Shown here piece by piece: positions 1,831-33,237 of a DNA stretch of 64,000 nt. Positions within the stretch are counted from its first letter, which is position 1, and each line of letters opens with the position of its first letter. Origin of the DNA: Mesostigma viride (taxonomy: Eukaryota > Streptophyta > Mesostigmatophyceae > Mesostigmatales > Mesostigmataceae); contig RPFO01001996.1 in the NCBI GenBank assembly GCA_009746045.1, positions 1 to 64,000 on the forward strand, written 5' to 3'. Made by a program: the position numbers and the translations under genes. Below the pieces are notes generated by a model. It was not told the origin of the DNA, did not search any database, and saw only the letters and a list, made by a program, of their open reading frames with translations.

Positions 1831-1890
1831 GGGCGCATCCGGCGGTGCGCGCCTGCAAAACACCGCATCAATTACCTGGGCGGGCTGGGT

Positions 1891-14597: not shown

Positions 14598-14872
14598 GAG
14601 TCATATTGATTCATGGAACAATGAGATACCATTCTTAATTGAAAATTGTTCTTGATACTTTCACATGCATGCCCGGAATCGTGAATTTGTGCGGGTTTCC
14701 ATGATGACAATCCTCATTGAATTCTTGAGCACACAATATTGAGCAATTTAGGGGCACTTCGGCAATGTTGACCATTTTCATTCATGATCAATAAAATTAA
14801 CATTTAATGCAATAAATACATATTCCACTCATTTTAATAAACCATGCAAAAACTTTACAAGCACGCTCAAGC

Positions 14873-15650: not shown

Positions 15651-15860
15651 CACCCCTCCATCGGCACAGCCAGCCTTGTGAGTCTACCCTTAACAACAAG
15701 GCTGGTAGGACGACACGCCTGAGCAGCATATGTCATGCCTATCTCAGGCTAATAATGTGTGATTTTGTGCCAACAACCAAGTTGTTCCACCCAACAACAC
15801 ATTATAAACCCTCTTCCAAAATGCCCAACAAGCCGGACACGTGGAGGACCACACACGCAG

Positions 15861-15869
15861 TATATAAAG
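15861..15869 (+). promoter_or_regulatory. Candidate TATA box in right arm
   Basis: TATATAAAG on the plus strand, the counterpart of the box at 4142-4150. The downstream ORF equivalent (from 16319) is disrupted in this arm. Confidence 0.35.
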
Positions 15870-16318
15870 AGAAAATAAGCTGACTTTTTATCCAGCCAAC
15901 CTGTGGCTAGCTGCTCTGGTTAGCATGACAAATGCTAACATTTACTCAGTGGGAAAGGTGAAGAGACCATTGGAACAGCCTACCTGACGCATGTGCCACC
16001 AAAGCATTGTGTCCCGCAAAATGCACACTGCCTCCTTTCTAACAAGCACGAGCCGCTCTCTTTAGGAGACAGGTGCCAGCTCGTCAGTGTCTGGGGAAAA
16101 TGATGCCGCTGCTTAGGAAGACCGCGTGAATTTCCTCGAACACAACTGTCTATAAAGCAAAAGAAATTTCAGAGAAGCATGGAAATAAAAGCATTACACC
16201 TTCCCGACAGGTTGCGGGCCACGCGCTGCAGAAAGCCAGCCACGTCACAGACGATTAACTAGCTAAAAGACACCCAGGAATCCAGCGATGCAGCGCCAGG
16301 ACCCGCAACTTTCTGGCT

Positions 16319-16741
16319 GCATCTGGCCGGAAAGAAGGCAAAAAGCTTACGCTCAACGAGGTAAGAAAGCAGGAAAACGCAAGCTTAAGACGTTTAACAC
16401 AAGAACGTACCATAACGGGCATTTATTCGTGCCCAGGCGCACAAGAAAGTCCACCCTTTCATGGAGTGGTTGGGCAGTACGCATCGCGCAGGGCTAATGT
16501 TATCTTACCGCAAAATGACGGGAAAGGTAAAGATAGCAGCGGGAATTTTTACGGCTTTAGAAACATCATTAAACTAGCTTTCCTTACGACCATCAAAACT
16601 GGCAACAATCGACAATCAACCCGGCAGGCATCCAATATACTTTATTCATCCCGACAGAAATTCAGGCCGGACCCCCCCTGCCGATGGCAAAGAAAAAAAG
16701 CCCGCGACATTATAGATCGCAACCATCCCGCCATAAATTAG
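16319..16741 (+). pseudogene. Disrupted copy of the arm ORF
   Basis: The sequence aligns with the 124-aa ORF of the left arm but is split by small indels into shorter frames (parts at 16288-16497 and 16466-16741). If the ORF ever encoded a protein, this copy is broken. Confidence 0.35.
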
Positions 16742-16858
16742 AATCAGTAACTAATTTTCTCCAACAATCGAGCATTTCTGCTTTCCGCGTGCCAGATTTG
16801 TCACGTTTCGTCTAAAGGCAGTCGCCATGGCCCCTACCGCAAGGGGTGCGCGCACCAT

Positions 16859-17180
16859 GCCGACATAGCTTTTGGGCCTCAATTTGCACCGAAATTTGGT
16901 CCGTACCGTCCAGCTCAGTCGGATTATGTATGTGGATCGGCCGTGTTGGTTGCATACGCAGGTATATTAATTCTTGCATTCGCCCCGGACCTTCCCCAGG
17001 ACAGGTCAGGATATAACAATAATTCTTGCATTCGCCCCCGCCCTTTCCTATGGCCTGGTCAGGTTTGGGCGCGACGCCACTAGCGCGGCGCCCGCGACAG
17101 AGTGGCCAGGCTCGAGCACGTTTTCTGGATCCCAAGCACCGGATTGGACACTGTCCGAGGACTGGACAGGAATTGGCTGA
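16859..17180. other. Unique flank of the gene island
   Basis: About 320 bp between the right arm and the candidate promoter. It contains a short direct repeat (TTCTTGCATTCGCCCC near 16973 and near 17022) and GC-rich sequence. No gene was recognised. Confidence 0.5.
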
Positions 17181-17223
17181 CCAATCGGATGCTTGCTCGT
17201 CGTCTCCAAAAACATATATAAAG
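17181..17223 (+). promoter_or_regulatory. Candidate promoter: CCAAT and TATA boxes
   Basis: CCAAT at 17181-17185 is followed 30 bp later by TATATAAAG at 17215-17223 on the plus strand. This is a textbook core arrangement and the only one found upstream of the rightward gene, but it is about 1.4 kb before that gene's ATG. It would require a long leader or a 5' intron that includes the hairpin-motif array (17950-18515). Confidence 0.4.
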
Positions 17224-17496
17224 AGCCAAATCGCGCGAACTACGCAAGGATCCTTTAAGCAGCGTTACTCTGCCGAAATGTCAACCTAGGCCGGTCAAGT
17301 GACGCCGAGGTGTTCACCGATAGTTCAGGTCAGCCACAGCGCGCCTTCGAATGTAGGCACGGTCGCATTTTTTTTTAGGAAATGTAGAATTGTTGTCGAC
17401 CAGCTACCAACGCCCGACCGGACCCATACAACGGAAACATCAAGGCGATGTGATGTAGGTGTGTCTGATATGTCATTAATACACAGAGCATCGTGA

Positions 17497-17650
17497 ATAT
17501 AATATATAATATAAATTATATAATATACTATAATTAATATATAATTTTAATTTTATGTTAATTTTAATGTTATTTCATATAACATAATATAGCATAATAT
17601 AATATAATATAATATAATATTATATAAAGTAGTATATAAAAAATTAAAAT
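17497..17650. repeat. AT-only low-complexity tract
   Basis: Almost pure A/T built from ATATAAT and TAATATA units, contrasting with the GC-rich gene downstream. It would melt easily. Nothing else was recognised in it. Confidence 0.85.
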
Positions 17651-17949
17651 GTAAAAGAAAAATATCTACCTTATTGGGGTTTAATGTTCCTTTCCAGTTC
17701 AGCATAAGTACACTCTTGAGTGTGTGCAATGTTTGGTTATACGCCATTGTCTTAAAATAGCAACCAATGTAAACCTCCGTCCTAACCACATTTGGATACA
17801 ATAAAGACATTGATGCCTGACACATAGCATTCATTGCTTGAAATACCATGCATATTTTGTGTCAATGTTCTGCAGACCACAGCTTCAAGTGGGCATACTT
17901 CGCTTTCCTCAATATAATGGCGACATGGCATTTGGTGAAAGTGGTGAGT
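17651..17949. other. Unique sequence before the motif array
   Basis: About 300 bp with no coding frame of note and no repeat relation to the rest of the window that I can see. If the promoter at 17181 serves the rightward gene, this lies in its leader or first intron. Confidence 0.5.
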
Positions 17950-18515
17950 GCCATGAAGTTGCGCCGGCCGTCGTTATCCATGACGAACTGAATGGGTTTC
18001 GTGCAAATCAAGTTTTTTGTTTTGGTGTTCCAGTTGCGCCGGCCGGCGTTTCCAATGGTATCTTGCGCGCACTTGCAAAAGCTTGCACGCTTATCAACAT
18101 TTTGTGTTGGTAAACATTTTATCACCTCTGGGATTTCCGCCTTCACTACCTGAGTTGCTTCTTTGTGGTTTTCAAATGCAACCGAGTTACGCCGGCCGTC
18201 GTTACTCATGACAAATTGTAGGGGTTTTGTGCAAATCACTTTTGTATGGTTTATGTACATGCATCCAGTTGCGCCGGCCGGCGTTTCCAATGGTATCTTG
18301 CAGTTGCGCAATCAGGCCCCATTACCAAAAGTGTGTTTGTACATCTTTTTTACACCTGAAGGATTTCTGCCTGCATATCCTGAGTTGCTTCTTAATGGTT
18401 TTTAATTGCGCCCGAGTTACGCCGGCCGTCGTTATTAATGACAAACTGTATGTGTTTCATAAAATCACTTTTGTATGGTTTACATGTATCCAGTTGCGCC
18501 GGCCGGCGTTATTAA
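17950..18515 (+). repeat. Hairpin-motif array upstream of the transposase-like gene
   Basis: Six copies of the island motif start at about 17958, 18033, 18186, 18268, 18416 and 18493. They alternate between a GGCCGTCG form and a GGCCGGCG form, giving three units of about 230 bp. Shared text between motifs (for example GTGCAAATCA, TTTTGTATGGTTTA, CCTGAGTTGCTTCTT) shows true tandem duplication. The array ends about 80 bp before the splice acceptor at 18594-18595, so it probably lies in a 5' intron of the gene. Confidence 0.8.
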
Positions 18516-18656
18516 TGACGCTTGTCGTTCTTGTTTGATGCCCATCGTTTTCGTCGTGTCTTTAATGGTGATTATTTATCATTACTCATCCTCAGGGCTT
18601 TCGGTGCCGCGGGATTAAGAGGCGAAAAAAATCAGCTGCCGTCTGACCAAAGTCTG

Positions 18657-21600
18657 ATGGCGCGATCGGGGCGGGGGGCCGTTTCCGACGGTTCGCGTCC
18701 CTTGTCCAATGACGACCGGGAGCCTGCACTTCGCGGTCTCTGGAGCGACAAGTACATCGAGAACAAGGGGTACAAAATTGCCAATGACATCTTTCCTATC
18801 ATGGCGGAACGCGTGAAAGCAAACAACCACAGGACGCCAGAGATGAGCGCGGAGGTTCTGTCTTGCGCAGCTTCAAGACTAAATGCCATGGTGGCGGAGA
18901 GCAACGGCATTAAGAAGAGGAAGAACTGTGACGGCGGGCTTCCTGAAAATTGGGCGGAATCTCTTCGGGATAACATCAAGAAGGCTTTTGGCGACTTGGG
19001 AACATCTGAGAAGGATCGTGGGCTTAGGTGGGCCTTGTGTGGACTTGTTACGAAGGCAATGGAGGGCGTCCCGGACAGGATTGTGGAGCGCGCGTTCGGG
19101 ATTGACAGGCGCTTTGTCGCAACTGTTCGGGGTCACAGGGATGGAATGGAAGAAGGGGAGGACGACCTTTTGATGAGTGCGCCAGAGAGGAGGAGGAGGA
19201 AAGACGAGCTTCCGACGGAAGTCATTGCCCTGATACAAGCGTGCTGGAGGGATGATAACTTGACGCGGGCGTCTCCGAACATGAAGGATGTTCATTGTGA
19301 ATGGACCAGAAAGGATTACAAACATACACTAGCGTTTTCGGAGGGTGCGCGCTACTATACTGTCTCCAAGTCGAAGATTTACGAAGTGTTCATTTCCCGC
19401 CATCCGGAGTTGAAGCCACCGCGGCGGATGGACAGTAGGGAGGGGGGGGGGGGGGAGGGAGAGGAGGGTGTGAGGGGGGGAAATCAGGTGATTTTGGAGA
19501 CGGAGGCAGGGATGTCAATGCTACGCACGAATCAGAAGAGCACAGTTCATGTGGGATACACTACTTTTTGCAAGCATATGCCCGCATGCGTCAAGGGGCG
19601 GTGGAAAATGCGGAACTTGTGCGCATGCCAGCACCACACTACCATGCAGTCCATGGTTGGGGGGTTGGCCAAATTTCGTGCAACTTTTCATGCCAGATGC
19701 GAGTGCGGACCTGAATGCCACGCGTGCGATCATGGTAGCCAGCTCGACGTGGGGTCGTCCGTGCCCACATGTTCCATTTTCAAAGCCACTCACACGACAG
19801 AGTGGGTGAACAAGTTTACTTGTGAGGTGGAGGGGATGAGGGAGGGGGGAGGTTCGAGGTCGTCTGTGGGGTCGTCGCGGCCGCAGGTTCAGCCTTTTCA
19901 GGGCGAACTTGAGGATCTGCCCATGCATGGGAGGGTGCTGGACGACGAGGAAGGGGTGCCCGATCATGACCTGGGCGAGGAGTTGGGGGTTTGCTCGATC
20001 CGGCGTAAGGCTTGTGTGTTGGGCACTTGCCTGGCTCCCAAGTGTGGAATTCGGAACTTCATGTTATGCGAACGGGAGGAGGCTTCCAACCACCTGATTT
20101 CATGGACCAGATACGAGATGCAGGATGTGCCGCCGGGTGCGGTTCTTGGGCCAGAGGTAATTTTTAGTGGAGTGGTTGCGCCCCAAGGCGTTTCTTTTGC
20201 AATGTTTCCTGAAGTTCTTGGGCCAGAGGTAATTTTTAGTGGAGTGGTTGCGCCCCAAGGCGTTTCTTTTTCAATTTTTCCTGAGGTCCTGTCTTTTTTC
20301 TTTCTACAGGTCATTGGTGGGTCGAAGTTGATGTCTTTTCTGTATGTGCACACTGCGCATATGCAGGACGACTGTGACGAGATCGCAAAGGCTGGTGGGC
20401 AGCGATTGACGCAAGTCGACGTCAAGTCCACACCAACGGAGCTAAAGGAGGCAATTGTGGACAAGTGGCCGGACTTCATCCAGCATTGCTTCAACGCGTG
20501 GTGGCAAGCGGACGCCTCCAAGGAATGTCTCTCAAGGATGCGGGTGGGGGACCTTGTATGCCACACAGATTACGCCGAGAACTACCAGTCTTACACCTAT
20601 CACAATCTCCAAGCACAGTATTGGCATCCAGTCACATTCGTCCTTATGCCCTGGATCGTGCGCTACTTGGATCCAGCGTCGGGAAAGGTCGTGAGAAGGG
20701 AGTTTCACTTCATCGGACAGGGCGGAATGAAAAGGGACGGGCGGGCCCTCCGTTTTGCTATCCTCAAAATCCTGGCGACACTACGGTCAGAAGGGGTAGA
20801 GGTGAAGCGCTTCATTGGGTGGTCGGACAATTGCTCCATGCAGTTCAAGTCAAGGAATGTGATCGCGGAAGTGGCCCGGCTGCTGACGGAGGATCCGCAC
20901 CTGGAGTCATTTGAGTGGAATTACTTTGGGGAGCAGCACGGAAAGGGGGAGGTGGATGGAGCTGGTGGGACTGTGAAGTGCATGTTGAGGAGGTGGCACA
21001 TCAGGGAAGAGAACCAGGACAAACAGACGGCCGCCCAGTTGGTGGAGAATCTGGCGTCGGGGGCGGTGGGCGGGACCACAACGACCAGGCGTAACTTCTT
21101 CGAGTTCCCCGAGGTAATTAAGTGTACAGTCCTCGTTCAGGGAATAGTTACGCCGGCCGTCGTTTCTAGGGCGTTCTTGGAGTCCTGGCGATCAGGAGTG
21201 CTTAATAAAACACAACTAGCTCGATGGTCTCGTAACTTCAACTTTCCCTTGTGCAAATCTTGTCTTCGACGCGCAGGTGCTTCCTTACAGCCCAGGGCGC
21301 GGCGAAATCAAAGGAGTGAAGAAGGCGCACTGGTGGCGCATGGACAAGTCGAATGTGACGCGCTTAATGCTGCGCCAGTATTCCTGCTATTGTGGCGGTG
21401 CGTGCGCCGAGGAAAGGTGGTGGGATTGTCGAAAGGAGTGGACCGACATGGACGGCTGGAATGTGGGAGGTGCTCGGATGAAGCTCCACAAACTGGGGGA
21501 GCCAGTGCAAAGGAACCCAAACGGACAAGGGGGGCACGCAGGGACGCGACTGAACAGACTACAGGCAGAGAGGACGATGATGGGAAGGAGACTGAAGCTG

Positions 21601-22008
21601 CGAGACATTTTTGCCGTCGAGTCCTACTCTGGTGATGAGTCCCACGATCCAGATCATCCATATTGGCTAGCGGAAGTCTTGCAGGAGCCTTATCAGGTGG
21701 CCGCTACTTTCGTGAGGCGAGTGGCCGACAGAAACGGCAAGGTCGATAGGGAGTTGTTCCGTAAGGGACAATGGGTGGTGGGGGTGCGCTACTGGGACAG
21801 ATTTCCGGGTATGGCGACGATGTTCAAAATGGACGCCGATGCGCAAGCTGAACAGCCAAACTTGGTCAATTGCTACCTGTGCATGGACGCGGGGTTCGAA
21901 CACACCATTGTTGTCAACCCAGCTAACAATCGCCAGGCCATCTTGACCATTCCGACAGACGTCGAGAAACGGCTCACGAACTTGGCCAAGAAGAGACCTG
22001 TTGAGTAG
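18657..22008 (+). CDS. Transposase-like protein with DDE-type core, three exons (1011 aa)
   Basis: Exons are 18657-20156, 20310-21113 and 21277-22008, all joined in phase 0 by GT-AG introns. An upstream acceptor (TCATCCTCAG, ending 18595) precedes the chosen ATG. The core (about residues 587-716) shows acidic residues typical of an RNase H fold: Asp587 in DYAENYQ, Asp673 in GWSDNCSMQFKS, then EQHGKGEVDGAGGTVK with Glu708 and Asp716. This pattern matches a widespread but poorly characterised eukaryotic transposon-type family; I cannot name the superfamily. Cys/His clusters (residues 305-331, 348-358, 446-463) may bind zinc. Residues 896-945 (YWLAEVL, GQWVVGVRYWDR) resemble a Tudor/BAH-type beta barrel. 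A run of 14 G at about 19441 within exon 1 encodes glycines and is frameshift-prone. The third-residue assignment (Glu708 or Asp716) is uncertain. Confidence 0.75.
20157..20309 (+). other. Intron 1 of the transposase-like gene, duplicated donor
   Basis: The donor is GAG|GTAATT and the acceptor TTTCTACAG. A 72-bp unit, starting about 14 nt before the donor, is repeated, giving a second donor at 20229. Each copy carries one hairpin motif (20175-20194 and 20247-20266). The intron is 153 nt long and free of in-frame stops, so retention, or use of the second donor, would add 51 or 24 residues without a frameshift. Confidence 0.8.
21114..21276 (+). other. Intron 2 of the transposase-like gene
   Basis: The donor is GAG|GTAATT and the acceptor GACGCGCAG, phase 0, 163 nt. 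One hairpin motif lies at 21147-21166, about 33 nt after the donor. An alternative acceptor (CCTTACAG, ending 21290) would shift the frame and is not favoured. Confidence 0.75.
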
Positions 22009-22552
22009 GCCAGCTCGCCCGGGCTTGGTTGGACGAGGTGGACAGCCTTGAGAGCACGTGCTTCGTTGTGAGCACTTGCCTTTCAGCCGTGATTTGCAAA
22101 CGAGTTCCTTGTCCTGAATTGTAAAGCTCGATTCATGCTCTTTTAAGGAAGTGTATAATATTATCCAGATCATGTATATATTTAGATCTAGACCTGAGTT
22201 CAAATAACATTTCTTAGAGGGCTGAGATGCGCGAGGTCCAGCATACATGTATATATCCATGGAGACATGTTACAAACTCAAATGTTTCATTGTACGTACC
22301 ACTAGCTCGTCGACGGGGGTATCCCATGTAATGTATGATTTATGAATTAATTAATCGCTTAATTGTACAATTTAAATGGATCATGAACTTGTCAAGTGGC
22401 CTAATTTGGTTTATTTGGTTCATCATTTATTGATGTCAATCATTCTTAATTGAATCTCGAGCAATAGCAATCATGAAGCACATCCTAATCATGTGATTCG
22501 CATAATGAGAATAGGCAACAAGTGCTAAGTACTTTGAGGAATGCGGGGTTGG
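22009..22552. other. Convergent 3' region
   Basis: 544 bp separate the stop codons of the two convergent genes. The sequence is AT-rich in its second half. No third gene, hairpin motif or recognised RNA gene was seen. It presumably holds both 3' ends. Confidence 0.55.
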
Positions 22553-23181
22553 TCAGGTTATTATAGAGCTAGAGCTACAAACGGCACATATATTGCAAAC
22601 TTTGCGCTCCAGGCATGGAATTTCAAAAGTACCAAAATTGGAGCAGTAGATGTTGGGGACGCCCAACAGGCCGCGAGCCTGCTTCCTGCTGGCGATCCCC
22701 ATCCTCATCACAGATACGCCCGCCGGCGTTTCCAGTAACAGGCCGCGAGCCTCCTTCCTGCTGGCGATCCCCCTCCTCATCACAGATACGCCCGCCGGCG
22801 TTTCCAGTAACAGGCCGCGAGCCTCCCTCCCGCTGGCGATCCCCCTCCTCATCACAGATACGCCCGCCGGCGTTTCCAACGACAGGCCTCGAGTCTCCTT
22901 CACCAGCACGCTGGCGCTTACCTCCCCCCCTTTTGTCTTCATCCCCCCCCATTGTCTCCTCCCGCGAGCCTCCATCATCCCGACTGCGCTTTTTCCCTCC
23001 CCTTCCATCTCCTCCCCCGTCCCTCTCCCCCTCCCCCCTCCTCCCTCCTCCCCATCCCCATCCCCTTTCTCCCCCTCCGCCTGCCCCCCACCCACCCCGG
23101 GCGGGTGCCCCTCAGCAATATCCTCCTCCCCCTCTTCCTCCTCCCCCTCTTCCTCCTCGTAAACCTCTTCCTTCTCCGAGC

Positions 23182-23243
<62 letters not shown>

Positions 23244-26200
23244 GAATGATGATCCCCGTCGTCTTCGTCGTCCACGACCACGGCAAAGTCCATGTCGACG
23301 TCTTGCCACCCATCTTCAAGAAGCCGATATTTGATAAGTCGGACCAGGCGCTTCCACCGGCGGATATGGGCGGGTAACCCGAACACCAGCAGAACTCTGG
23401 AGGGTCCCTTCAACAGGGCCTTGGTGATCTGGTCAACCACATCCCACGCGGCATACCTCAAACGGGAGGAGGGTAAGGGTATCTGGCTGTCGACCGGAAT
23501 ACAGTCTTGATCCCACTCGCGCAGGTTCCTCCACTTCTCGTTGCTGTCAGCTGTCAGGTCCAGCACAGCAAACGCCTGGTCCTTCAGCTTCCCAGGAAGG
23601 TCTTCAGACCCCGTGTACAACTCGTCCACCACCTTCGTCACCACCAGATCCTTTCTTTTTTCGTTTTCCTTCCATGTCATTGTCCTGTATGCGATCCAGT
23701 CGGGTCCCATCTTCACCCCGTCCCAATAGGTGAAGGCTTCCAGCCTGTCCCACCACCCCCTCTTGGCCTTGGCAGTCCCCTCCTCCTTAGCCGCCGCCTG
23801 CACCTCCTCCTCCGCCGCCGCCTCCTGCTGTGGCACACCCAGCAGATGTTTGGTCTTCACCCCCAAATCGTCATACAAATGACGGGGGTGGGAAGCGAGC
23901 AGCCCTCTCGGGAACTTCCAGTCCTTCTGGTCGACCACTTTCCTTTTAGCCGGCGGAAGGTCCCTCAGCGTGAGAATGATCGCCCTCGTGGCCGTGACGA
24001 TCACCCGCCAAAAGTCTCTGGTCAGGCGGCAGTCGGCGATGAACTTGTCGAGGTCCGTGGCGACGGTGCCCTTCAGCTTCACGCCAAACACGTGCTCCCT
24101 CACCAATACGGGGTCGAAAGTCCCGTTTAGTTGTTTGCAAGCGGCCATCAGCTCGGGGTTCTCCAGGAACTTGATGTGGGCGAATTGCTTTGCCGCCTCT
24201 ATCAAATTCTTGGCGACTTCCATTATTTTTATCAGGTTGCTGGGAGGGGCCTCACAGGACATGATCGGCGCTTGGATCAGGCTGTCGAAGTACTGGAAAC
24301 TCGCAAGTTCCCGATGCGCGGTGAAAATGGACAGTTCGTGCGCCTTGTCTTTAGGGCGCGTGTCAAGGAAGTCTTGCCGAGCCGCGATATCCTGTGCGAT
24401 CGCCGGCTTGCCGTCGACAGCGGGCTTCAAAGGGTCCTCACACCAGAACAGCCAGCGCTGCATGAAGTTCTTCTGGTCCGGCCCCCACTTGTCCGTCTCT
24501 TCAGCCCCTCCTGCCTTGTCGCCTGCGCCGTCCCCTTCGGCCTTGGCTTGCTCTCCTTTCTGCCAAAAGGGCTTCACAATCGCCCAGATCTTGCCGTACA
24601 GAGGAGTTGGGAGAGACACGCCCTTCCCTCTCTTGACGGGTCCATATGCCTGGTAGGCCCGGTGCACATCCCCCAGCGCTGAGCCCCACGTTGCCTTGGC
24701 TTGGGCTGTGTCCTCGGCGTTCATGGCGTTCCCGAGCTGCCTGACAACTTCGATCATCTTGCCGACTTGTTCGGTAACCTGCATCCCCGTAGGGCAACAA
24801 CGCGCAGAGACACATCGACAGTCCTCCCAAATAAGCACAACTCAACTGAGAACAAGAATACGACTGACAGAAACGCCGGCGGTCGCATCTTGACCAAAAT
24901 ATGGCATGCTAAGGTGGAACATGAAAACCCCTTATAGAAACGCCGGCGGTCGCATCTTGACCGAACTAATGGCATACTGAAATTAACACAAGAAAACCAC
25001 TTATAGAAACGCCGGCGGTCGCAACCTGGCTTACCTTCTGTTCACGGATCTGCCACCAGGTCGGCAGGATGGTCTCACCCTTGAGCATCTGCACGTCCAC
25101 CCCCCCGAAATTCGTCCAATCAGTTGCCCACTCCTCCAGCTTCGCCGCGGCCACGGTCTTCGTGACCTCCTGCTCCTTCCCTCCCCGCGCAACGACCCTG
25201 AGCTTTTCCGCCTTCATGAAACCATTCAGCATTGCCTGGTACCACACAGATCTTTGGTCCACCGTCATATTGTCGGTGACCAGTTCGAATTTCACCGATT
25301 TGATGAGTGTGGTAAAGTGGTTCCCGTCCAGCACGAGAAAGCCGCAAATGGCTGGCGGCAACGGTGGCTTCTTCTCGAGTGGAGCCATCTCCCAGGCGGA
25401 CTTGCACAAACTGTCCAAAAGCGCGGCCTTTCTCACGTCCACGGGCTTAAGTGAGTCCAGAATATCGGCCGGTCCTGTCAGAACCGCGGTGGAAGCAGCT
25501 TCGGCCATTCCCTTGGCCGAGCTCGTTCGCAGGTAGATATCAATCTCTTTGTCAGTCATTGCGCGAGCGTAGCCAGCCTTCATTGTCCGTGCCCCCCCAT
25601 CTCCCCGAAGAGTTGCGCGAGCTGACGCTGGGTGCCTTCCTTTTTCATCCAGTCATGAAAACTGTTGGGGCACCGGTCAGCCAAAAACTGGAACGAGTAC
25701 CGCCACACAGGAATCACCAGCTTGTCGTGGCCGTAGTCGGACTCCGAGTTTGCAAAAATGGTGGCGTTCTGCTCGGCTCTAGACAGATGCAAGTCTCGTG
25801 CGAGGAGCTTCTGAGGCCCCACGAACAGGTTCCTTGTCCACACCCGATTTCGATGCACCAAGGCTTTGGACATCTCATCGAGGTCCCGAGGCTGAACGGC
25901 AAGCTGCTTCCGCAACCGTTTGCCCTTCGCGATCTCATCGTTCACATCCAGGATGTCATCATCATCCTGCGACACCGGGGACTTCTCCCATTTCTCAAGC
26001 AGAGACACGGGAGCATCCGCAACCTCCACCTCCTTTCCTTTCCCCTTTCCCTTCAGCGCCTTCCCCTTGTAGGTCGCAAGTGCTTCGGAGAGTCCCTTCT
26101 GGTGTTCGTCGACGGCAGCAGTCCACGTACTATCTATTTTCATGTTCTCGCGGCGCGCGTGCTGGTCGAGGCTGATTGAGTACAGGATGGCCGCGTGGGT

Positions 26201-28355
26201 CGCCCTCTCGGCCTGCACGTACTGCGTTGATGCGAAAAAATCAGGAAAGCATAACCAAAAGGAATAAAGTAAATGCCGATTGAGAAACGCCGGCCGTCGC
26301 AACCTACATGAAACCTGAACCTCAACATCAAAGCCCCCCTCACAACAGAGGTATACTTACCTCGTTCCCCTTAACAATGATATGAAAAAATCAGGAAAGC
26401 ATAACCGAAAGGAATAAAGTAAATGTCACACTTGAGAAACGCCGGCCGTCGCAACCTAGATGAAACCTAAACCTCAAGATCAGAGCCCCCCTCACAACAG
26501 AGGTACACTTGGCTCATTTCCCTCAACGATGCGAAATCAGGAAAGGAAGTAAGTGTTAGTCAAAAGGAAGTAAGTGTCACACTTGAGAAACGCCGGCCGT
26601 CGCAACCTACATGAAACCTGGACCTCAAGAACAAAGCCCCCCTCACAACAGAGGTAGACTTACCTCATTCCCCTCAACCGCTGCTGCTTCAGCCGCTTTC
26701 TTCGACCCCTTCGCGATCTTCGGAGACTTGTCCCGGCGGGCATCGTGTTCCTTCAACATCTTGATCAGAGTCTTGGCGTCCGCCATCGTCACCGTCTTCA
26801 GTTTACACTTCCTCTCCTTCCCTTTGCCCTCGAACAGGTTCTCCTCCATCCACTTTATCAAGGCCTTGGCGCTCGGGATCTCCTCAGGCTGTGTGGCGCC
26901 ATCGGGCGCGCACGCATTCTTCACGATCAACTCAGCGACTTGATGGAGAGTCATCATCTGGTTCCGTACCTCAGGTGGGGCTGTTTCCGTTCTCACCTCG
27001 GCCACAACCCACTTTGCCAACTTCTTCAGTTGATAAGCATCCGCTTGCTCCTTAAAGCGTGTCATTTTCGCAGTATCGCCGTCGCTTCCACCCGCGCCCT
27101 CTGACACAGGCTCACCGACAGCGATAGCCCCCTCTCCCTGGAGATTTGCCCCACCCTGACGACCGGCTTCCTGCAAGAACATTATCAACGGAAGATTTTT
27201 AATGTAAGAAAAGTGTAGAGAAACGCCGGCCGTCGTAACTCTGTCAATTGAGGACGAACCTAAACTTTCAATTTGTAAGTCAACGGTAACTTACCCTTCC
27301 CCCCTCTGCAGTGGAACCACCGTAAGATCCACTTCCCCTCCTGTCACCGCCCTCTTGCTGCTCGAACGGACTTCCCTGTAAAAATAGCAAACGCGATTGT
27401 CCATTCACAAGAAAAAAATTACTACAAAAATAAACAAGGATATACGCACGCAAACCTTTTCAATACAAGTAAACCGGAGAGGAATCTGACGCACTCATGT
27501 ACCTGGGTGCTTCCCGCCATTGAGCGGGCTTCTCTTGCACCAACATCCTCTTGCCGGCCCTGCGAACATTTCAACGGAAAGTAAAAATCCGCTTAGTTGT
27601 CGGAAATGACATGTCTGGCGAATATTGCAAAAAAATGCGTATTGTATTTCACGACATCAATTTAATGGGCGGAGACTTACGAAGATCGGCCCGCCACCTT
27701 CCAAATTGCCCAGCGTCATATCGAAAACATCGAGGACTTCCCCTCCATCGACCCCCTTCCCCCTTCCCCTCTGCCGCGGCGGGGGCATATCGCCCGTCGC
27801 GACCGGCTTGGAAGTCGCGGGGGGATCCCTTGCGGTTGAGGGCACTGCGGCCGACTCGTGCACACTCTCCCCCCTCTTTTGGGCTACTGCGGCAGGCGCG
27901 GCATGGGAGGGCGCGGCGGCTACTGTCTCTGGCGCATTCTGAGCCAACCGACGCAACCTTAGCTCCTGCTGGAGCAGGGTTTCGAAACGAGGCATGAATG
28001 TGCGCTTGGAGGTATAAGGCACCTTGGCGACTTCAGGTTTGTCATTAAGGATGTCTTGGTACAGCGCGAATTGCTGTTCACGAGTGCCATTCGCGAGTCG
28101 CTCAAACCGCTCAATCTGAATCCGCTTAACCGGATCGTCCACCATCTCAAGACCACCGTGGTACTCATCCTTCCCAGTGACCGCGGCAAAGCTGACACCA
28201 GATTCCACCATTGGGGGCGGCGTGCCCTCCCTTGCACGCTTGTGAGGAGGCTGTTGTGGGGAGGCGCCTTGGGCCTGAACTGGTTGCCCTTCTGACCCTT
28301 CCCCCCTAGGGGGAGAGTCGCCGACCACCTGCGATGTAGGGCCGCCCTTTTCCAT
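22553..28355 (-). CDS. Large hypothetical protein, six exons (about 1577 aa), one apparent frameshift
   Basis: Exons in order are 28355-27681, 27559-27503, 27375-27295, 27170-26664, 26221-25035 and 24778-22553. All junctions are GT-AG and phase 0. The ATG follows a TTGCAG acceptor directly. Exon 5 reads through only if one G is added to the G7 run at 25592-25598; its length then becomes a multiple of three, so a sequencing error or a recent lesion is likely. I recognise no catalytic domain. Visible features are a Gln/Pro/Ala-rich N-terminus, Lys/Glu-rich helical stretches, a run of about 20 Asp (about residue 1350) and Glu-rich sequence after it. Near the C-terminus (about 1468-1532) is a 24-residue repeat (LLETPAGVSVMRRGIAS) created by antisense copies of the hairpin motif. 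It is the last of six co-oriented ORFs. Confidence 0.6.
22690..22880 (+). repeat. 72-bp tandem repeat with hairpin motif inside coding exon
   Basis: Three units, with the motif at about 22713, 22785 and 22857 on the plus strand, antisense to the gene. Because 72 is divisible by three, they add a 24-residue protein repeat to the large ORF's C-terminus. The unit resembles the amplified intron units in length and composition. Confidence 0.85.
23182..23242. repeat. (CAT)n trinucleotide repeat encoding poly-Asp
   Basis: About 20 uninterrupted CAT triplets on the plus strand read as GAT (Asp) in the minus-strand gene. The frame is maintained on both sides. Such tracts vary in length among individuals in most genomes. 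Confidence 0.95.
24779..25034 (-). other. Intron 5 of the large gene, with triplicated motif unit
   Basis: The donor is CAGAAG|GTAAGC and the acceptor GGGGATGCAG, phase 0. Three motif units of about 67-69 bp lie in a row (motifs at 25006, 24937 and 24870), each followed by GTTTTC(T/A)TGTT-type sequence. An alternative acceptor (TTGTTCTCAG) lies about 60 nt upstream of the chosen one. Confidence 0.75.
26222..26663 (-). other. Intron 4 of the large gene, with triplicated donor-plus-motif unit
   Basis: The donor is AATGAG|GTAAGT and the acceptor ATCAACGCAG, phase 0, 442 nt. Three units of about 151 bp each begin with a copy of the exon's last roughly 15 nt. Donor-like GTAAGT is kept at 26663 and about 26360 but lost (CCAAGT) in the middle unit. 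Motifs lie at 26587-26606, 26436-26455 and 26284-26303. Confidence 0.8.
27171..27294 (-). other. Intron 3 of the large gene
   Basis: 124 nt, donor AGG|GTAAGT, acceptor GTTCTTGCAG, phase 0, with one hairpin motif at 27220-27239. The two neighbouring introns (27376-27502 and 27560-27680; 127 and 121 nt) have canonical ends but no motif, so the motif is not needed for splicing in this gene. Confidence 0.75.
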
Positions 28356-28577
28356 CTGCAACACAAAACAAAAAAATTGGAAAAAACATACGAGTCAGCA
28401 GGAAGATGCGCCCCACGTCGCAACTCAATACAAAAAATGCATCATTATGTCAAGGTACAAACAACGTTATAATTCAGAATGAACAGAGATTCATAACAAG
28501 AGAACGACGCACTAAAAGATGCGACCGCCGTCGCAACTTTCGTCAATTCACTCTCTATACAAACAACTCTATGTCCC
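28356..28577 (-). other. Inter-cistron spacer with two hairpin motifs
   Basis: 222 nt between the stop of the 244-aa ORF and the ATG of the large gene. Motifs lie at 28517-28537 (a perfect TGCGAC/GTCGCA stem around GGCG) and about 28404-28424. The spacer ends in a T-rich tract and TGTTGCAG immediately before ATG. It can be read as an intergenic region with a trans-splice acceptor, or as a 5' intron. Confidence 0.6.
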
Positions 28578-29312
28578 TCATAAAGAATCAATTGGCAAGG
28601 AAATGCAAAAAAATTCCGTTACCACCTCCGTCGACCCATAAGTGGTTCGCGAATGGGAAATCGCTGCTGATTTTCGGTCGAGCCCTTCACGGTATTTTCG
28701 AAATCTCGAGGCAAGGTTGCGCGGAAGAGGGCCCCCCTCAATCATGCGTGCGATCGGACTGGCCATGGAAACGGATACCTGGTTCCTGGACTGCCTTGCA
28801 CGGTCAACCATCTTGAAACTTCCCCGGAGAAGGAAATCAGACGTCAGACGGTTGAATATGCGAACGTCAAGATTTGACCAACCCATCATCCATTCCACCA
28901 CCTTCTCCGCGGCATCATGGAAGACCTGCCTCTCATCCGCCACTCCTCGAGACCCAAACACACAATCGGCCGTGTTATCGTCGTGCCTCTTAAGGCGAAT
29001 GTTCACGTCCTCTTTGTCATCATCCATTTCCGACAGCCGAATTACAGCCCTTTTGGCTCCGTCCACTCCATCCTCAAGAAGGACGTCCATCTGCGCCCCT
29101 CCCACACAATTGTTGTCAACGTATTGTTGCAAATGACGGGAAATCATGTCCTTTCCAAAAGCTACGATGTGTTCCCCACACAGACCCATGTCGGTAATTG
29201 ACAGCTTTTTACATTTCCTATCCCGGCACTTCTTTTCGGGATCCTTCTCAAAAATCCGGAAAACAGCGTCCTGATATGGACGTCCCCTTATGTCGACCGT
29301 CAGACTGGACAT
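28578..29312 (-). CDS. Hypothetical protein with C-X4-C-X10-C-X2-H motif (244 aa)
   Basis: The ATG directly follows the acceptor-like GGTTTCGCAG. Residues Cys29, Cys34, Cys45 and His48 form a probable zinc site with the same spacing, and the same CKK after the second Cys, as in the next upstream ORF (29593-30459). The rest is mixed charged sequence with no domain I recognise. A hairpin motif follows the stop within about 40 nt (28517-28537), and a second lies before the next ORF. No good splice donor interrupts it, so I treat it as a complete single-exon cistron. Low similarity outside the motif leaves open whether the two are paralogues. Confidence 0.6.
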   Translation of the reverse strand: MSSLTVDIRGRPYQDAVFRIFEKDPEKKCRDRKCKKLSITDMGLCGEHIVAFGKDMISRHLQQYVDNNCVGGAQMDVLLEDGVDGAKRAVIRLSEMDDDKEDVNIRLKRHDDNTADCVFGSRGVADERQVFHDAAEKVVEWMMGWSNLDVRIFNRLTSDFLLRGSFKMVDRARQSRNQVSVSMASPIARMIEGGPLPRNLASRFRKYREGLDRKSAAISHSRTTYGSTEVVTEFFCISLPIDSL

Positions 29313-29592
29313 CTGCGAAACCAGAACATACCGGCCGCGAGTAGTTTATATTATTAAAAAAAACTGGCATTTATTAAGTCATCTTCATCTATTTATGCGA
29401 GCTAAAATTTGAAGAAAATGCAACAAAGAAACGCCCTGGGGCGCAACTTCCTCAACAACCACTTTCTACGTACAAACGAATGGCAATCACATCGACTACG
29501 ATTGTCACTACATACGAATGTCCAGACAATATAATGTGTATGTAGAGGGGGGGCATTCAAGACCAGAGAAACGCCGGCGGGCGCAACTCATA
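29313..29592 (-). other. Inter-cistron spacer with two hairpin motifs
   Basis: 280 nt. Motifs at 29568-29587 (6 nt after the stop) and 29428-29447. It ends in GGTTTCGCAG directly before the next ATG. Confidence 0.6.
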
Positions 29593-30459
29593 TCAATATA
29601 GACTGTCCCGCGACTCGTTCCACTCTCTGCAGGTTTTGCAACAACCGATCGAGCGAACTCTCGGAACCTCTTTCGCCGCCATTTCATCGACACGAGCGAA
29701 CATCTCTTCTTTGGCGGCCACCAACTTTGCCTCCTTGTTGCCGGTGTCAGGATAGATTTCGGACCTCCTCGTCTTCATCGGGGCCACTCTCTCCAAATAC
29801 TCTGCACACAGAGAATCCTGCTCCTCCTCCACAATCGCCTTCACGCCGGATACAATCGCTTTGGCTTTTGTTTCCACGCGAAAATCGAACTCTCGTTGAG
29901 TTATCAGCGGAATGTCGGCGAGTGCAAAACACATACGCCGATAAAGTTCGCTTACATCCGTGTCACGCGAGTCGGCAAAAGGTGTCGTCATCAAAAAGCA
30001 TCTCAAGCTACTCCAACCATTTTCTTGGGCGCCGGCAACGTAGCCTCCCTTTGCCAAGTCCGCACCTGTCGCGGAGTCTTTGACTATCCAATCTTCAAGG
30101 AAGTACTCGTCTCCCCTGGTGAAATCAAAATTTACACCCACGACCTCTCCGACAGTCATGTCCAGGCGAAGTCGCAGGGCCCCCCCCGCCAATCCAGGTC
30201 CGAGGGCGCCCGCCATTCCAAGTCCGCGACTGAGGGCATTTTCGATGTGACGAGAATGTTCTTCGTGCTTTCGGCAATACAAGTCAAATCCGAGAGCGGT
30301 TTTCTTGCAAGTGGACACATCACACTTGCGCGGCGCCCCTATTGAGCGAGCAACACTCTGAATGACAGTGGCAACCGCTTGGTGTTGTTGAAGTCGTTGC
30401 CAATCCTCCATCAGGAGGTGACTAGACGAATCGGACGAATCTTCCGTCGAACCGGACAT
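29593..30459 (-). CDS. Hypothetical protein with C-X4-C-X10-C-X2-H motif (288 aa)
   Basis: The chosen ATG (MSGSTEDSS) directly follows ACTTGTCGCAG. Residues Cys46, Cys51, Cys62 and His65 form a probable zinc site matching that of the following ORF. The N-terminus is Ser/Asp-rich; later sequence is Ala/Glu/Lys-rich and probably helical, and a CCKTC cluster is close to the C-terminus. The motif loosely resembles zinc sites in plant-type or transposase-associated fingers, but I assign no function. The stop is followed within 10 nt by a hairpin motif. Confidence 0.6.
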   Translation of the reverse strand: MSGSTEDSSDSSSHLLMEDWQRLQQHQAVATVIQSVARSIGAPRKCDVSTCKKTALGFDLYCRKHEEHSRHIENALSRGLGMAGALGPGLAGGALRLRLDMTVGEVVGVNFDFTRGDEYFLEDWIVKDSATGADLAKGGYVAGAQENGWSSLRCFLMTTPFADSRDTDVSELYRRMCFALADIPLITQREFDFRVETKAKAIVSGVKAIVEEEQDSLCAEYLERVAPMKTRRSEIYPDTGNKEAKLVAAKEEMFARVDEMAAKEVPRVRSIGCCKTCREWNESRDSLY

Positions 30460-30623
30460 CTGCGACAAGTTACGATAACATACCGGCCCCGGAAAATAAA
30501 ATTCAAAAAACGTTTTGAAATTTTTTTATTGTACTTGTTTATTAATACGAAGGTTTAAATTTGGCGCAAAGAAACGCCCCAAGGCGCAACTTGTCGAACA
30601 GCAATATGGCGATAAAACATTAT
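30460..30623 (-). other. Inter-cistron spacer with one hairpin motif
   Basis: 164 nt. Motif at 30571-30590, with the CGCC-TTGG-GGCG form. The 3' half is T-rich and ends in ACTTGTCGCAG before the ATG. Confidence 0.6.
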
Positions 30624-30824
30624 CTATTCAATGTGCGATTGATGTGCTGAAACCTTCCAGACTTTGACACTGTCCGGTATCACCGGACTCGGACGAGGAG
30701 TCGAGTCGGAAGCGAGCCAGTAATCCTCGACTATTTTTTTGATGTACAATGGAAGACTCCTTCCATTATGTCGAAGTGTGTCGGTCCTTTGCCTTTTGGC
30801 CAAACTCTCCTTAACCTCCACCAT
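30624..30824 (-). CDS. Small hypothetical protein (66 aa)
   Basis: The chosen start, MVEVKESLAKRQRTD, lies 3 nt after a CCTACGCGCAG acceptor; upstream in-frame codons would read through the AT-rich spacer. The N-terminal half is strongly basic (possible nuclear signal KRQR); the C-terminal half is Pro/Ser-rich. No family was recognised. It is supported mainly by its position and by the shared acceptor-ATG layout. Confidence 0.4.
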   Translation of the reverse strand: MVEVKESLAKRQRTDTLRHNGRSLPLYIKKIVEDYWLASDSTPRPSPVIPDSVKVWKVSAHQSHIE

Positions 30825-30925
30825 TTCCTGCGCGTAGGAGGAAAATGATACGTTATAAACATTAAACATTAAACATTAAATATAACATCATATAAACAAG
30901 TTATTACTCTACATTTCAAGTTTTT

Positions 30926-31681
30926 CTAAGAGGCAGAGCCGTCGTGGAAGTTGAAGGAGAAGTCGACATCAGACCCCATAGTTTTATCCAGTATCGTCGT
31001 CACGTTAACCCCCCACTTCACCCCTGCCAGCACCTCCCTCGCTTGCCTCAGACGTTCGCATCTATCCTTATGCCTACTCCAGTCCGCACGCTGGCACTCC
31101 TCACTGCAATATCTGGCATCCCTACATCCTCTACACCACTTGATATGAGGTCCTGTTTCGCACCCACACCCCTCCTTGGAGCACTTTCGCGTACTACGCA
31201 TGCGATCCCCATCCCTCACGATCGGGTCAGAGAGCAAGAAAAAGTTCATGTTGAGGGGTACTGCCCCTACACATGCATCAGCCCTCACGCGCAGAGAATG
31301 CGTAACATTCGGGTAAAATGCGCGCCCGTAGGTGCACCCAAGCTGAGCCCCTTCCTCTTCCCCCAACTCTATCTTTGGCCCCTTTGTAATGAACGACACC
31401 AAAAGGCGGAACTCCGTCCTTGGGTCTATGGGCACTCTTAGATCCATCTGTGGTCTGAAAAAACCCTCTTGAATACAGAAGTTCATATCAGCTAGCTGGG
31501 CGTACATAATTCTCTCCATTTGGCTGAACGAATCAAACGCCAATAAAACGGCCAAGTGGCGGCCTGTCCTCTCCTGCGCGACTCGAACTTCCTCGAATAT
31601 GACACGCGACAGAAAGCGAACTTGTTTGAAAACGTTTTGAAGGACGCTTCCGTAGACTTCATTCACGATCTCGGACTCCAT
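30926..31681 (-). CDS. MYND-type zinc finger protein (251 aa)
   Basis: Residues 167-208 match a MYND finger: CSKEGCGC, then WCRGC, then YCSEECQRADWSRHKDRC with the expected spacing and the Trp before the last His/Cys. MYND fingers are protein-interaction modules found in transcriptional co-regulators and SMYD-type methyltransferases. No SET domain is present here. The N-terminal 160 residues are unrecognised. The ATG directly follows CCTGAAAAAG. It lies 101 bp upstream of the 66-aa ORF and 68 bp downstream of the next ORF, without a hairpin motif in either spacer. Confidence 0.75.
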   Translation of the reverse strand: MESEIVNEVYGSVLQNVFKQVRFLSRVIFEEVRVAQERTGRHLAVLLAFDSFSQMERIMYAQLADMNFCIQEGFFRPQMDLRVPIDPRTEFRLLVSFITKGPKIELGEEEGAQLGCTYGRAFYPNVTHSLRVRADACVGAVPLNMNFFLLSDPIVRDGDRMRSTRKCSKEGCGCETGPHIKWCRGCRDARYCSEECQRADWSRHKDRCERLRQAREVLAGVKWGVNVTTILDKTMGSDVDFSFNFHDGSAS

Positions 31682-31749
31682 CTTTTTCAGGGAAAAAACG
31701 AACAAAAAAATTCATAAACATTAATTTATTATTTTATAATAACAAGTTA

Positions 31750-31974
31750 CTATTCCTCGGAATAGTTTTTTTTTATCCATTCCACAAACGCGTTTGTCAC
31801 AAACACCTTCCATGCTTTCTCAAGAACTTGTCCCCCTGATGTTTTTGAGTATTCAAACTCGTCATCCGAAGAAACCAACTCCGGCACATCCTCCGAGAGG
31901 GTCTCTAAATTGTCATCGGCTTTCCTTTTGCGCTTGTGGTTTCCGAAGCATTTTTTTTGTTCTTCTTCTGACAT
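31750..31974 (-). CDS. Small acidic hypothetical protein (74 aa)
   Basis: The start chosen is MSEEEQ, which follows a GGTTGCAG acceptor by 5 nt. An upstream ATG at 31989 (MVAEQ) would add 5 residues but overlaps that acceptor. The protein has a basic patch (HKRKRKAD) and then an acidic Ser/Asp/Glu stretch. No domain was recognised. It is the first ORF of the leftward series, downstream of the five-copy motif array. Confidence 0.45.
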   Translation of the reverse strand: MSEEEQKKCFGNHKRKRKADDNLETLSEDVPELVSSDDEFEYSKTSGGQVLEKAWKVFVTNAFVEWIKKNYSEE

Positions 31975-32094
31975 TTGTTCTGCAACCATGGAGTCATTTC
32001 GAGGGGGGTGTGGTTTAACGGGTGCAGATTTAAAGTAATTTGTTTTAGGTGAACGATGGTAAAAACTTCATTAGATATTTTAAACGAACGAGAA

Positions 32095-32510
32095 GCAACA
32101 GAAACGACGGCGGGCGTAACTATCATGGGAAACTTTGATATCACAAGATCACAATGGACACGAACGCGCTGCAACTTTCACGACATATTCTTCGACATCG
32201 AAAATAAAAAAGAAACGACGGCGGGCGTAACTATCATGAAACATTGATCTTACAAGAAGCTGACGGGGATGCAACTTTCACGACAAACACTTCGACATCG
32301 AAGATGCAAAAGAAACGACGGCGGGCGTAACTATCATGGAAAGATTGAGCTTACAAGATGACAAGTTAACTGACGGGGGTGCATCTTTCCCGAGATATAT
32401 TTCGACATCGAAAAGGCAAAAGAAACGACGGCGGGCGTAACTAGCACAACCAATGTTGGTCATGTGCTCTTCCAGTAAGACAAGAAACGACGGCGGGCGT
32501 AACTATCACA
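32095..32510 (-). repeat. Hairpin-motif array upstream of the leftward gene series
   Basis: Five motif copies at about 32101, 32212, 32312, 32422 and 32484, in sense orientation to the minus-strand genes. Spacing is 100-111 bp except for the last (62 bp). Shared intervening text includes ACTTCGACATCGAA-type sequence and GCAACTTTCACGA. It mirrors the array upstream of the rightward gene (17950-18515), so the island is bounded by an array on each side. Confidence 0.82.
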
Positions 32511-32559
32511 CGGTCCAGGAAGAGTGACGTTGGCAGAATTATGGTGTTTGTAAAAGGGG

Positions 32560-33237
<678 letters not shown>

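Follow-up and report, generated by a model that had tools for sequence, protein, structure and literature searches.

Two copies of a giant DNA transposon, each present in part, make up the gene island described here; its non-coding DNA carries a 22-bp dyad, AG(T/A)TRCGMC-N4-GKCGYWTCT, that appears to serve the element as a docking site for protein. The window is the whole stretch of 64,000 nt of Mesostigma viride that was analysed (contig RPFO01001996.1, assembly GCA_009746045.1, positions 1 to 64,000, forward strand). As noted in the initial annotation, which counted about 29 copies confined to the gene island, all 29 sites lie at 17957-32504 and none elsewhere in the window; its consensus, GTTRCG..TTTC, captured a real motif but was too short, the full dyad being built from the half-site AGWWRCGMC. 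We consider it probable that the 22-bp site is recognized by a dimeric DNA-binding protein, likely encoded by the element, in introns, spacers and promoter arrays.

Parts of two giant transposon copies

The transposon ends consist of 27-bp TIRs and 4-bp TSDs, so that both features of a DNA transposon were found. TSDs were present in the two elements tried, which are those with both ends in hand, and read AGAT and ATCG; in the second pair the ends lie about 110 kb apart and are assumed to belong to one element. L110 contained no element end. A complete copy measures 34,173 bp, with a satellite core inside and the two arms in inverted orientation, and it is the entire element, 34 kb or longer, that moves as a unit. 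The motif arrays of this copy are internal and adjoin the satellite core, and no motif site occurs in its first 1.9 kb or last 1.5 kb. One core match within these site-free ends belongs to a gene 1 exon and was counted as chance. At least 150 genomic places match 251 aa of gene 1 exon 2 at 100% identity (150/150 scored places), and at least 150 places were scored at 92-100% identity for gene 3. The element family is recently expanded, with more than a hundred near-identical copies. The transposon link that had been suspected for the motif is thus borne out, and reading the island as a host gene cluster was rejected in view of the TIRs, the TSDs, the satellite core and the many genomic copies. 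The window contains the following parts of the element.

16859..22664, plus strand: arm A of element 1, with its motif array, gene 1 and the A-end terminus, from copy alignment
22638..22664, minus strand: A-end TIR, 27 bp, GGGCGTCCCCAACATCTACTGCTCCAA read inward
22665..32540, minus strand: arm B of element 2, bearing genes 2 to 6, from L091/L109, L099 and L105; its right limit against simple repeats is approximate

Seven copies (L089/90, L093/94, L095, L100, L102, L106, L108) align with arm A as far as 22664-22669, beyond which their DNA differs. The 27 bases of the TIR are identical at the B-end of L099, of L105 and of the element that begins in L109, and the flanks differ between copies. The satellite to the left of arm A travels at least partly with the element, 14124-22669 being found at 99.97% in L102. 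Arm B is interrupted at 22665 by element 1; in other copies it runs outward to the B-end TIR, over about 1.9 kb in two copies and 3.9 kb in L105.

Placement and conservation of the 22-bp site

The sites are distributed among the genes of the two arms as follows.

17957..18513, plus strand: array of six motif sites (17957, 18032, 18185, 18267, 18415, 18492) upstream of gene 1, in 230-bp tandem units
18657..20156, plus strand: gene 1 exon 1, an open frame with the start codon chosen by eye
20157..20309, plus strand: gene 1 intron 1 (GAG/GTAATT ... TTTCTACAG), motif sites 20174 and 20246
20310..21113, plus strand: gene 1 exon 2
21114..21276, plus strand: gene 1 intron 2, 163 nt, motif site 21146
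21277..22008, plus strand: gene 1 exon 3, gene model
22712..22877, plus strand (opposite to gene 2): three motif sites (22712, 22784, 22856) in 72-bp units, probable last intron of gene 2
22928..28355, minus strand: gene 2, manual model with exons 28355-27681, 27559-27503, 27375-27295, 27170-26664, 26221-25035 and 24778-22928
24779..25034, minus strand: gene 2 intron, motif sites 24869, 24936 and 25005 (gene model, site scan)
26222..26663, minus strand: gene 2 intron, motif sites 26283, 26435 and 26586, in 151-bp units that take in the exon end
27171..27294, minus strand: gene 2 intron, motif site 27219 (gene model, site scan)
28356..28577, minus strand: spacer between genes 3 and 2, motif sites 28404 and 28517 (gene model, site scan)
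28578..29312, minus strand: gene 3, ORF of 244 aa with a C-C-C-H finger-like pattern
29313..29592, minus strand: spacer between genes 4 and 3, motif sites 29427 and 29567 (gene model, site scan)
29593..30459, minus strand: gene 4, ORF of 288 aa with a C-C-C-H finger-like pattern
30460..30623, minus strand: spacer before gene 4, motif site 30570 (site scan)
30926..31681, minus strand: gene 5, with a MYND finger (PF01753, E 2.3e-07)
31750..31989, minus strand: gene 6, small ORF of 79 aa
32100..32504, minus strand: array of five motif sites (32100, 32211, 32311, 32421, 32483) upstream of gene 6, adjoining the satellite core

Intron 1 of gene 1 is 153 nt long, in frame and stop-free, so we infer its splicing; both of its sites lie in a 72-bp tandem duplication which takes in the exon end. 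Intron 2 is taken as spliced because the reading frame changes across it. Gene 2 is large, with an acidic tail, and its exon 26221-25035 contains a frame change near 25590. The end of gene 2 at 22928 is our own choice, next to a donor-like GAG/GTAAGC at 22927 that would open the probable last intron. Alternatively, the sites at 22712-22877 may be in-frame coding repeats. In L091, L096-99 and L104-105 the first 420 bp contain four core matches apiece, corresponding to this region, whose right edge varies between copies with a spacing that is not always a multiple of 3.

Gene 1 has no match in Pfam, NCBIfam, PHROG or PDB, and its exon 2 is a putative DDD-transposase core. Genes 3 and 4 show no likeness to each other by BLASTP, and gene 4 is missing in some copies of the element. 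Among the 10 proteins scanned against Pfam (E up to 1; gene 2 without two short exons, arm B without its outer part), and in NCBIfam, PHROGs and PDB, the MYND finger was the one usable match, weaker ones with E >0.01 being left unused. Such a finger is usually a protein-binding module. Searches for relatives of the element among viral contigs, prokaryote contigs and phages gave nothing useful.

The information content of the motif drops to background at both edges of the 22 bp. The core CGMC-N4-GKCG, a pattern identical to its reverse complement, was located 31 times, always within 17.9-32.6 kb and never in the remainder of the 64 kb. Two of these cores were dropped: one at 26896, inside a gene 2 exon and scoring below 8 bits, and another without the R/Y flank, which belongs to gene 1 exon 3 by likeness to the complete copy (offset 33466). 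The 29 sites score 24.8-35.2 bits, and the next best scores are 11.9 in the island and 15.8 outside it. Dinucleotide shuffles of the island (n=30) yielded a mean of 1.07 cores and a maximum of 4, and chance was rejected as the source of the motif. Exact half-sites number 50 in the window, with six outside complete sites. Excluding the WW pair, the two half-site profiles are alike (r 0.92, against 0.68 when it is included), the WW positions being asymmetric, TT on the left and AA on the right.

None of the 29 sites falls in an exon of the manual models, though exons make up 70% of 17950-32510; for the sites 22712, 22784 and 22856 this holds only if gene 2 ends at 22928. These same three sites are the exceptions to the orientation, which had been described as nearly always sense: 26/29 sites are in sense to the gene and the three point oppositely. 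That most introns, the spacers and upstream arrays carry the motif was confirmed. It is found in 6/8 putative introns, with the first site 8-56 nt from the 5' splice site in each of the six, and upstream of the translation starts of genes 2, 3 and 4; the gene 2 introns 27376-27502 and 27560-27680 and two short spacers have none. All five tandem arrays scoring at least 150 within 17950-32510 contain the motif. The regularity in the spacing of site clusters (CV 0.31, P 0.049) was too weak for use.

The motif is exceptionally stable between copies of the element, in keeping with its earlier description as a special conserved sequence. We aligned 14 of 16 arm B copies, covering 14 of the 29 sites; the sites of intron 6, intron 7 and arm A are outside the alignment, from which L096-99 and L104-105 were excluded because of large insertions. 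Among these 14 diverged copies, 4/308 motif columns are variable, compared with 193/1887 in other non-coding and 248/4136 in coding DNA, and sets of 14 random non-coding 22-mers had a mean of 31.2 variable columns and a minimum of 8 (5000 draws). At CpG cells the motif shows 0/934 changes versus 86/1409 in other non-coding DNA, and the 1-3 nt immediately flanking it change at 4.1%. These figures come from the stricter filter; a looser filter on the same alignment gives 10/3004 changed motif cells versus 662/19128 non-coding ones. Arm A copies have 0/198 variable motif columns versus 16/1712 in other non-coding DNA, with too few changes overall to separate the two. The loop and stem had been called variable, which is true between sites but hardly so at a given site across copies: the 4-bp spacer differs from site to site, yet it is as frozen as the stem, with no change in 515 cells.

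In a genome-wide search, as proposed for the motif, GTTRCGMCN4GKCGTT gave 5590 matches and the reversed pattern 413. Of 100 matches listed, all on one contig, 91 lie in stretches examined and 90 of these 91 are inside copies of the transposon. Among the matches listed, the motif therefore looks nearly confined to this element. In viral contigs, at least 80 stretches showed one match each, which we read as chance. Word searches of the literature found no paper on this 22-bp motif.

Readings of the site

In the mechanism that we favour, the dimer would read double-stranded DNA at a pair of inverted 9-bp half-sites, AGWWRCGMC, separated by a 4-bp spacer. The binder probably comes from the element itself, gene 2 with its acidic tail and the finger-like genes 3, 4 and 5 being the candidates, and would bind about 30 sites, which are spread over the introns, the spacers between genes and both promoter arrays. 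Once bound, it may leave the arms that bear the genes transcribed and free of silencing next to a satellite core depleted in CpG, much like VANC in VANDAL elements, and the sites would have multiplied through the short tandem duplications carrying them. Papillomavirus E2 sites (ACCG-N4-CGGT) and the I-CreI target (9+4+9 bp) are likewise dimer-bound inverted half-sites around a 4-bp spacer; unlike in those systems, the spacer is frozen per site here, and no relative of either protein was detected. The CpG o/e of the arms is 0.88, the same in coding and non-coding DNA, against 0.02-0.37 in the satellites of the window and 0.58 in the core of the complete copy. Some non-satellite DNA of the window also reaches about 1.0, and the CpG content of the arms was accordingly downgraded from proof of lost methylation to weak support; the satellite deficit could also be a founder effect of the monomers, which speaks against an anti-silencing reading.

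Several observations were counted against the favoured mechanism. A dimer site would not need the sense bias, and the WW positions are asymmetric (TT/AA). Simple indirect readout does not predict a spacer that is frozen per site and different between sites. In the scanned element proteins no known DNA-binding family was found, the MYND finger being the one match. The site-free outer ends and the variable right edge at 22712-22877 were also set on this side.

That the motif acts at the RNA level, as a short hairpin or a linear signal within introns and leaders which serves splicing, export or cistron separation, is quite unlikely. The sense bias still favours an RNA role, and the position of sites near 5' splice sites and before start codons agrees with it, as does the folding of 14 representative sites, 4 of which do better than shuffles at z < -2. 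However, z is positive in another 4/14, and no stem forms at sites 17957 and 21146. The halves can pair, as the initial annotation stated, but the M/K stem position is Watson-Crick in 12/29 sites and not in the other 17, with 16.2 pairs expected from shuffled columns; M and K vary independently, and the stem positions show no covariation among the 29 sites, hence no compensatory changes. A loop conserved like the stem, large arrays upstream of genes, introns and spacers without a site, and the empty Rfam scan also speak against this signal; a tRNA scan found nothing either. The RNA processing hairpin was therefore rejected. The other earlier proposal, the conserved end of an introner, is close to excluded. 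In its favour, most introns carry the motif, and all six introns with readable phase are in phase 0 (two from gene 1 exon lengths). Introners, in the parts of the reports at hand, are whole similar introns in many genes (PMC9860276; Amoebophrya, PMC7789003); they share with our case a repeated sequence within introns with inverted-repeat character, whereas here 22 bp alone are shared, inside the introns of one transposon. End-to-end likeness was not found: pairwise comparison of 13 introns, spacers and arrays (78 pairs) gave a mean masked score of 9.84 versus 9.46 when shuffled, and the pairs above z 3 were two spacers with a common leader before the ATG (z 7.3) and two weaker ones (z 4.0, 3.2). 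Neither are TIRs or TSDs at the intron boundaries; the motif starts inside the introns and also occupies spacers and promoter regions, and what moves is the entire element, whose ends are TIRs with no sites nearby. The lack of stem covariation together with introns that share little else leaves both the hairpin and the introner readings without support.

It is unlikely that the motif is simply a host transcription factor site, exploited as a promoter or intron enhancer with no binder encoded by the element. The arrays directly upstream of both outer genes, the one or two sites that precede each of genes 2-4, and the location in the 5' part of introns would suit such a factor, but other targets would then be expected, and a single one of the 91 examined places (100 listed on one contig, 5590 in total) is outside the element. 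Sites bound by the transposase for transposition, recombination or copy maintenance, with a part in synapsis or in the replication of so long an element, are very improbable. Inverted arms, repeated arrays and strict conservation are in line with them; against this, the arrays are internal beside the satellite core, the TIR ends are separate, 1.9 kb and 1.5 kb there being free of sites, and introns are an odd location. Transposase end sites were rejected.

Comparison with known systems

The closest parallel to the proposed self-encoded dimer is found in the Arabidopsis VANDAL elements with their VANC anti-silencing proteins, as described in the available parts of PMC5735166 and PMC10398659. 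VANC21 sites are found in introns, intergenic and terminal non-coding regions as tandem repeats (PMC5735166), and VANC motifs are 8-9 bp long with fast turnover between related copies (PMC5735166, PMC10398659). As far as these accounts go, both systems place a short motif in introns and intergenic or upstream non-coding parts of a multi-gene DNA transposon, not in coding DNA, and multiply it as tandem repeats. They differ in that the Mesostigma viride element has a 22-bp dyad almost frozen between copies, a 4-bp TSD, sites away from the termini and a satellite core. The VANDAL hallmarks, a Mutator-type transposase VANA and a VANC protein with DUF1985, had no Pfam match (E up to 1) in gene 1 or the scanned pieces of gene 2. 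We put forward, tentatively and with more doubt than belief, that a self-recognition code arose independently in a giant, satellite-bearing element which does not belong to the VANDAL lineage of plants, with introns and spacers as pads for its own dimeric chromatin protein, and with 4-bp spacers, varying between pads yet frozen at each one, that tune or address them. If this is true, sequence-specific self-marking of a transposon, known from Arabidopsis VANDALs, would have arisen independently with a longer and far stricter site, and the housing of binding sites would give a selfish element a reason to keep and lengthen its introns. More than a hundred near-identical copies offer material for testing self-marking, and the 22-bp site could be a handle for finding the binder.

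Giant Sola-1/KDZ/EnSpm transposons of Ectocarpus also combine great size with accessory genes, one of which, ParB-like with a DNA methyltransferase, is proposed to bind and modify the DNA of its own element (PMC12477816); the available parts of that report describe no binding motif, unlike here, and the 10 element proteins scanned with Pfam (outer arm B aside) contain no ParB or methyltransferase domain. The likeness of the element to the Sola superfamily rests on TSD length, which is 4 bp here and, in the portion of the report at hand, 4 bp in Sola2 (PMC3627910).

The motif and its placement

The motif is a 22-bp dyad, AG(T/A)TRCGMC-N4-GKCGYWTCT, whose information falls to background directly beyond its edges (14 representative sites). 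We found 29 sites, all within 17957-32504, and none elsewhere in the 64 kb. They score 24.8-35.2 bits, and the best non-member reaches 11.9 bits inside the island (17950-32510) and 15.8 outside. The sites fall into 11 clusters, none of them exonic (0/29), while exons fill 70% of 17950-32510; these counts depend on our manual gene models.

Site clusters relative to gene 1 (plus strand) and genes 2-6 (minus strand)
5' of gene 1: 6 sites
Two introns of gene 1: 2 and 1 sites
Probable last intron of gene 2 (22712, 22784, 22856): 3 sites
Three other introns of gene 2: 3, 3 and 1 sites
Spacers preceding genes 2, 3 and 4: 2, 2 and 1 sites
5' of gene 6: 5 sites

No site was found in the short introns 27376-27502 and 27560-27680, nor in two short spacers. 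The motif lies in sense to the gene at 26 of the 29 sites. The initial annotation, which reported about 29 copies confined to the island, was accurate on that point; its near-constant sense orientation holds with three exceptions.

The segment 22709-22890 is probably the last intron of gene 2, an assignment less certain because the reading frame is open across its three motif units, which could be coding repeats. A donor-like GAG|GTAAGC (22927) precedes these units, and in other element copies they are not consistently spaced by multiples of three; the end of gene 2 at 22928 is our choice. Since intron 1 of gene 1 is in frame and stop-free, we infer its splicing from splice signals. The spliced genes point to a eukaryotic source. 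All six introns of 20157-28355 with readable phase are in phase 0.

A giant transposon carrying the motif

Genome stretches from the assembly (439.9 Mb, 2243 contigs) were fetched and compared with the window (C1706:1-64000) by Blast. Two arms of a transposon family with 27-bp terminal inverted repeats (TIRs), arm A (16859-22664, gene 1) and arm B (22665-32540, genes 2-6), lie mostly far apart in genome copies and adjoin at 22664/22665 in the window. Arm A stops at 22664 in seven copies, with differing DNA beyond, and arm B runs past 22665 in others, by ~1.9 kb in two and 3.9 kb in the stretch L105. The B-end terminus, GGGCGTCCCCAACATCTACTGCTCCAA, is the A-end sequence inverted. Both elements with two known ends carry 4-bp duplications (AGAT and ATCG). 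The former is a complete copy of 34,173 bp (C1:1332767-1366939); the ends of the latter lie ~110 kb apart and are assumed to belong to one element. From one end to the other, the element comprises the B-end TIR, then genes 2-6 (outward) and a motif array, the satellites, a second motif array, gene 1 (outward) and finally the A-end TIR. At 22664/22665, the A-end TIR of one element abuts the arm B interior of another, apparently because one is nested in the other; the other side of this insertion lies beyond the window. Positions 1-16858 and 32541-64000 are taken up by long arrays of satellites and simple repeats (71-bp, 184-bp, 30-bp, GAGGGA, GTAAGC), which are at least partly carried within the transposon and some of which form a large inverted repeat between 3154-6462 and 16860-13551 (95%).

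The genome-wide search proposed in the initial annotation was run as a pattern search: GTTRCGMCN4GKCGTT matched 2670 + 2920 times and the pattern read backwards 200 + 213 times (5590 vs 413). Placement was checked among the 100 matches listed, all on contig C1. Fetched stretches hold 91 of these, 90 within segments aligning to arms A or B; the exception (in L107) lies outside such segments and lacks the outer consensus bases. The remaining nine follow the arm A site order, as judged by order rather than alignment. The complete 34-kb element holds 35 core matches, of which 33 are taken as sites and two (offsets 6220 and 33466) as chance because of their flanks and exon location. Its outermost site (offset 1908) is degenerate, and no site occurs in its satellite core, first 1.9 kb or last 1.5 kb.

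The middle exon of gene 1 is 100% identical over 251 aa at all 150 scored places (at least 150; 681 candidates). Gene 3 has at least 150 scored places, most at 100% and others at 92-99% (423 candidates). The family appears large and, judging from the identity of these coding pieces, recent. The gene 1 product may resemble DDD transposases; its protein gave no match in Pfam, NCBIfam, PHROG or PDB. An ORF at 54369-55292 weakly matches an IS1595-type transposase zinc ribbon (E 0.00088, under the curated cut-off). Gene 4 is absent from some copies (L111, L113, L117, L104-105), where the alignment skips from 29595 to 30475. In gene 2, a 7-G run (25590-25596) marks a change of frame, being a sequencing error, a frameshift site or a gene border. 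A common leader (GGCCGGTATGTT...GCAG) stands immediately 5' of the ATG in genes 3 and 4 (29313-29340, 30460-30490), and that of gene 2 is similar (GTATGTT...GCAG); these GCAG-ending leaders are a possible trans-splice or mini-intron signal.

Conservation and the choice between DNA site and RNA hairpin

The alignment of fourteen copies (L091, L111-L123) spans 26170-32560 and takes in 14 of the 29 sites. Only 4 of 308 motif columns vary (4/2910 cells), versus 193 of 1887 in other non-coding DNA (555/18195 cells); coding columns vary at 248/4136. Fourteen random non-coding 22-mers gave a mean of 31.2 variable columns and a minimum of 8 (5000 draws). The 4-bp spacer is unchanged in all 515 cells, and CpG cells changed in 0/934 cases in the motif vs 86/1409 in other non-coding DNA; the first three flanking bases show 4.1% change. 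Arm A copies, with 0/198 variable motif columns vs 16/1712, are too alike to be informative. The sites of the probable last intron of gene 2 differ at their right edge among copies and are thus the weakest members. Copies differ by a few bases in inter-site distance and also in the size of the array (7 sites in L091, vs 5).

The motif had been proposed to pair as an RNA hairpin, with the spacer as loop, a reading that the data do not bear out. Its M and K positions are independent, with 12 standard pairs observed vs 16.2 expected. Folding of 14 representative sites was mixed: z was below -2 in four and positive in four, and the stem is absent from the fold of at least two. The half-site profiles are equal (r 0.92 when the WW pair is excluded, 0.68 when it is included), and the window has 50 exact half-sites, only 6 of which fall outside the 29 sites (chance expectation 3.7). 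By these sequence properties, binding of a dimer to double-stranded DNA accounts for the motif better than an RNA stem does. A dimer on DNA leaves the sense bias unexplained; selection on the T-rich sense strands of introns and leaders may account for it, although this is a guess.

A candidate self-recognition site

In Arabidopsis VANDAL elements, an anti-silencing protein, VANC21, occupies non-coding regions (introns, intergenic and terminal regions) via a short motif, which builds up as tandem repeats in introns and 5' of the transposase gene, and methylation is lost from the element (PMC5735166). The site layout of the present element is much alike in its non-coding placement and tandem repeats. 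All five tandem arrays scoring at least 150 within 17950-32510 contain the motif, and in two of them an exon-intron border is duplicated together with it. CpG observed/expected is 0.88 in the arms, equal in coding and non-coding DNA, 0.02-0.37 in the window satellites and 0.58 in the core of the complete copy. This contrast agrees with protection of the arms, and other causes are possible. The likeliest reading is therefore that the motif is a self-recognition site: a predicted element-encoded dimeric protein would recognise sites across its own transposon and, once bound, would maintain the activity of the element's genes. A related idea concerns a giant Sola-1 element of Ectocarpus, whose accessory proteins are proposed to bind and modify their own transposon (PMC12477816).
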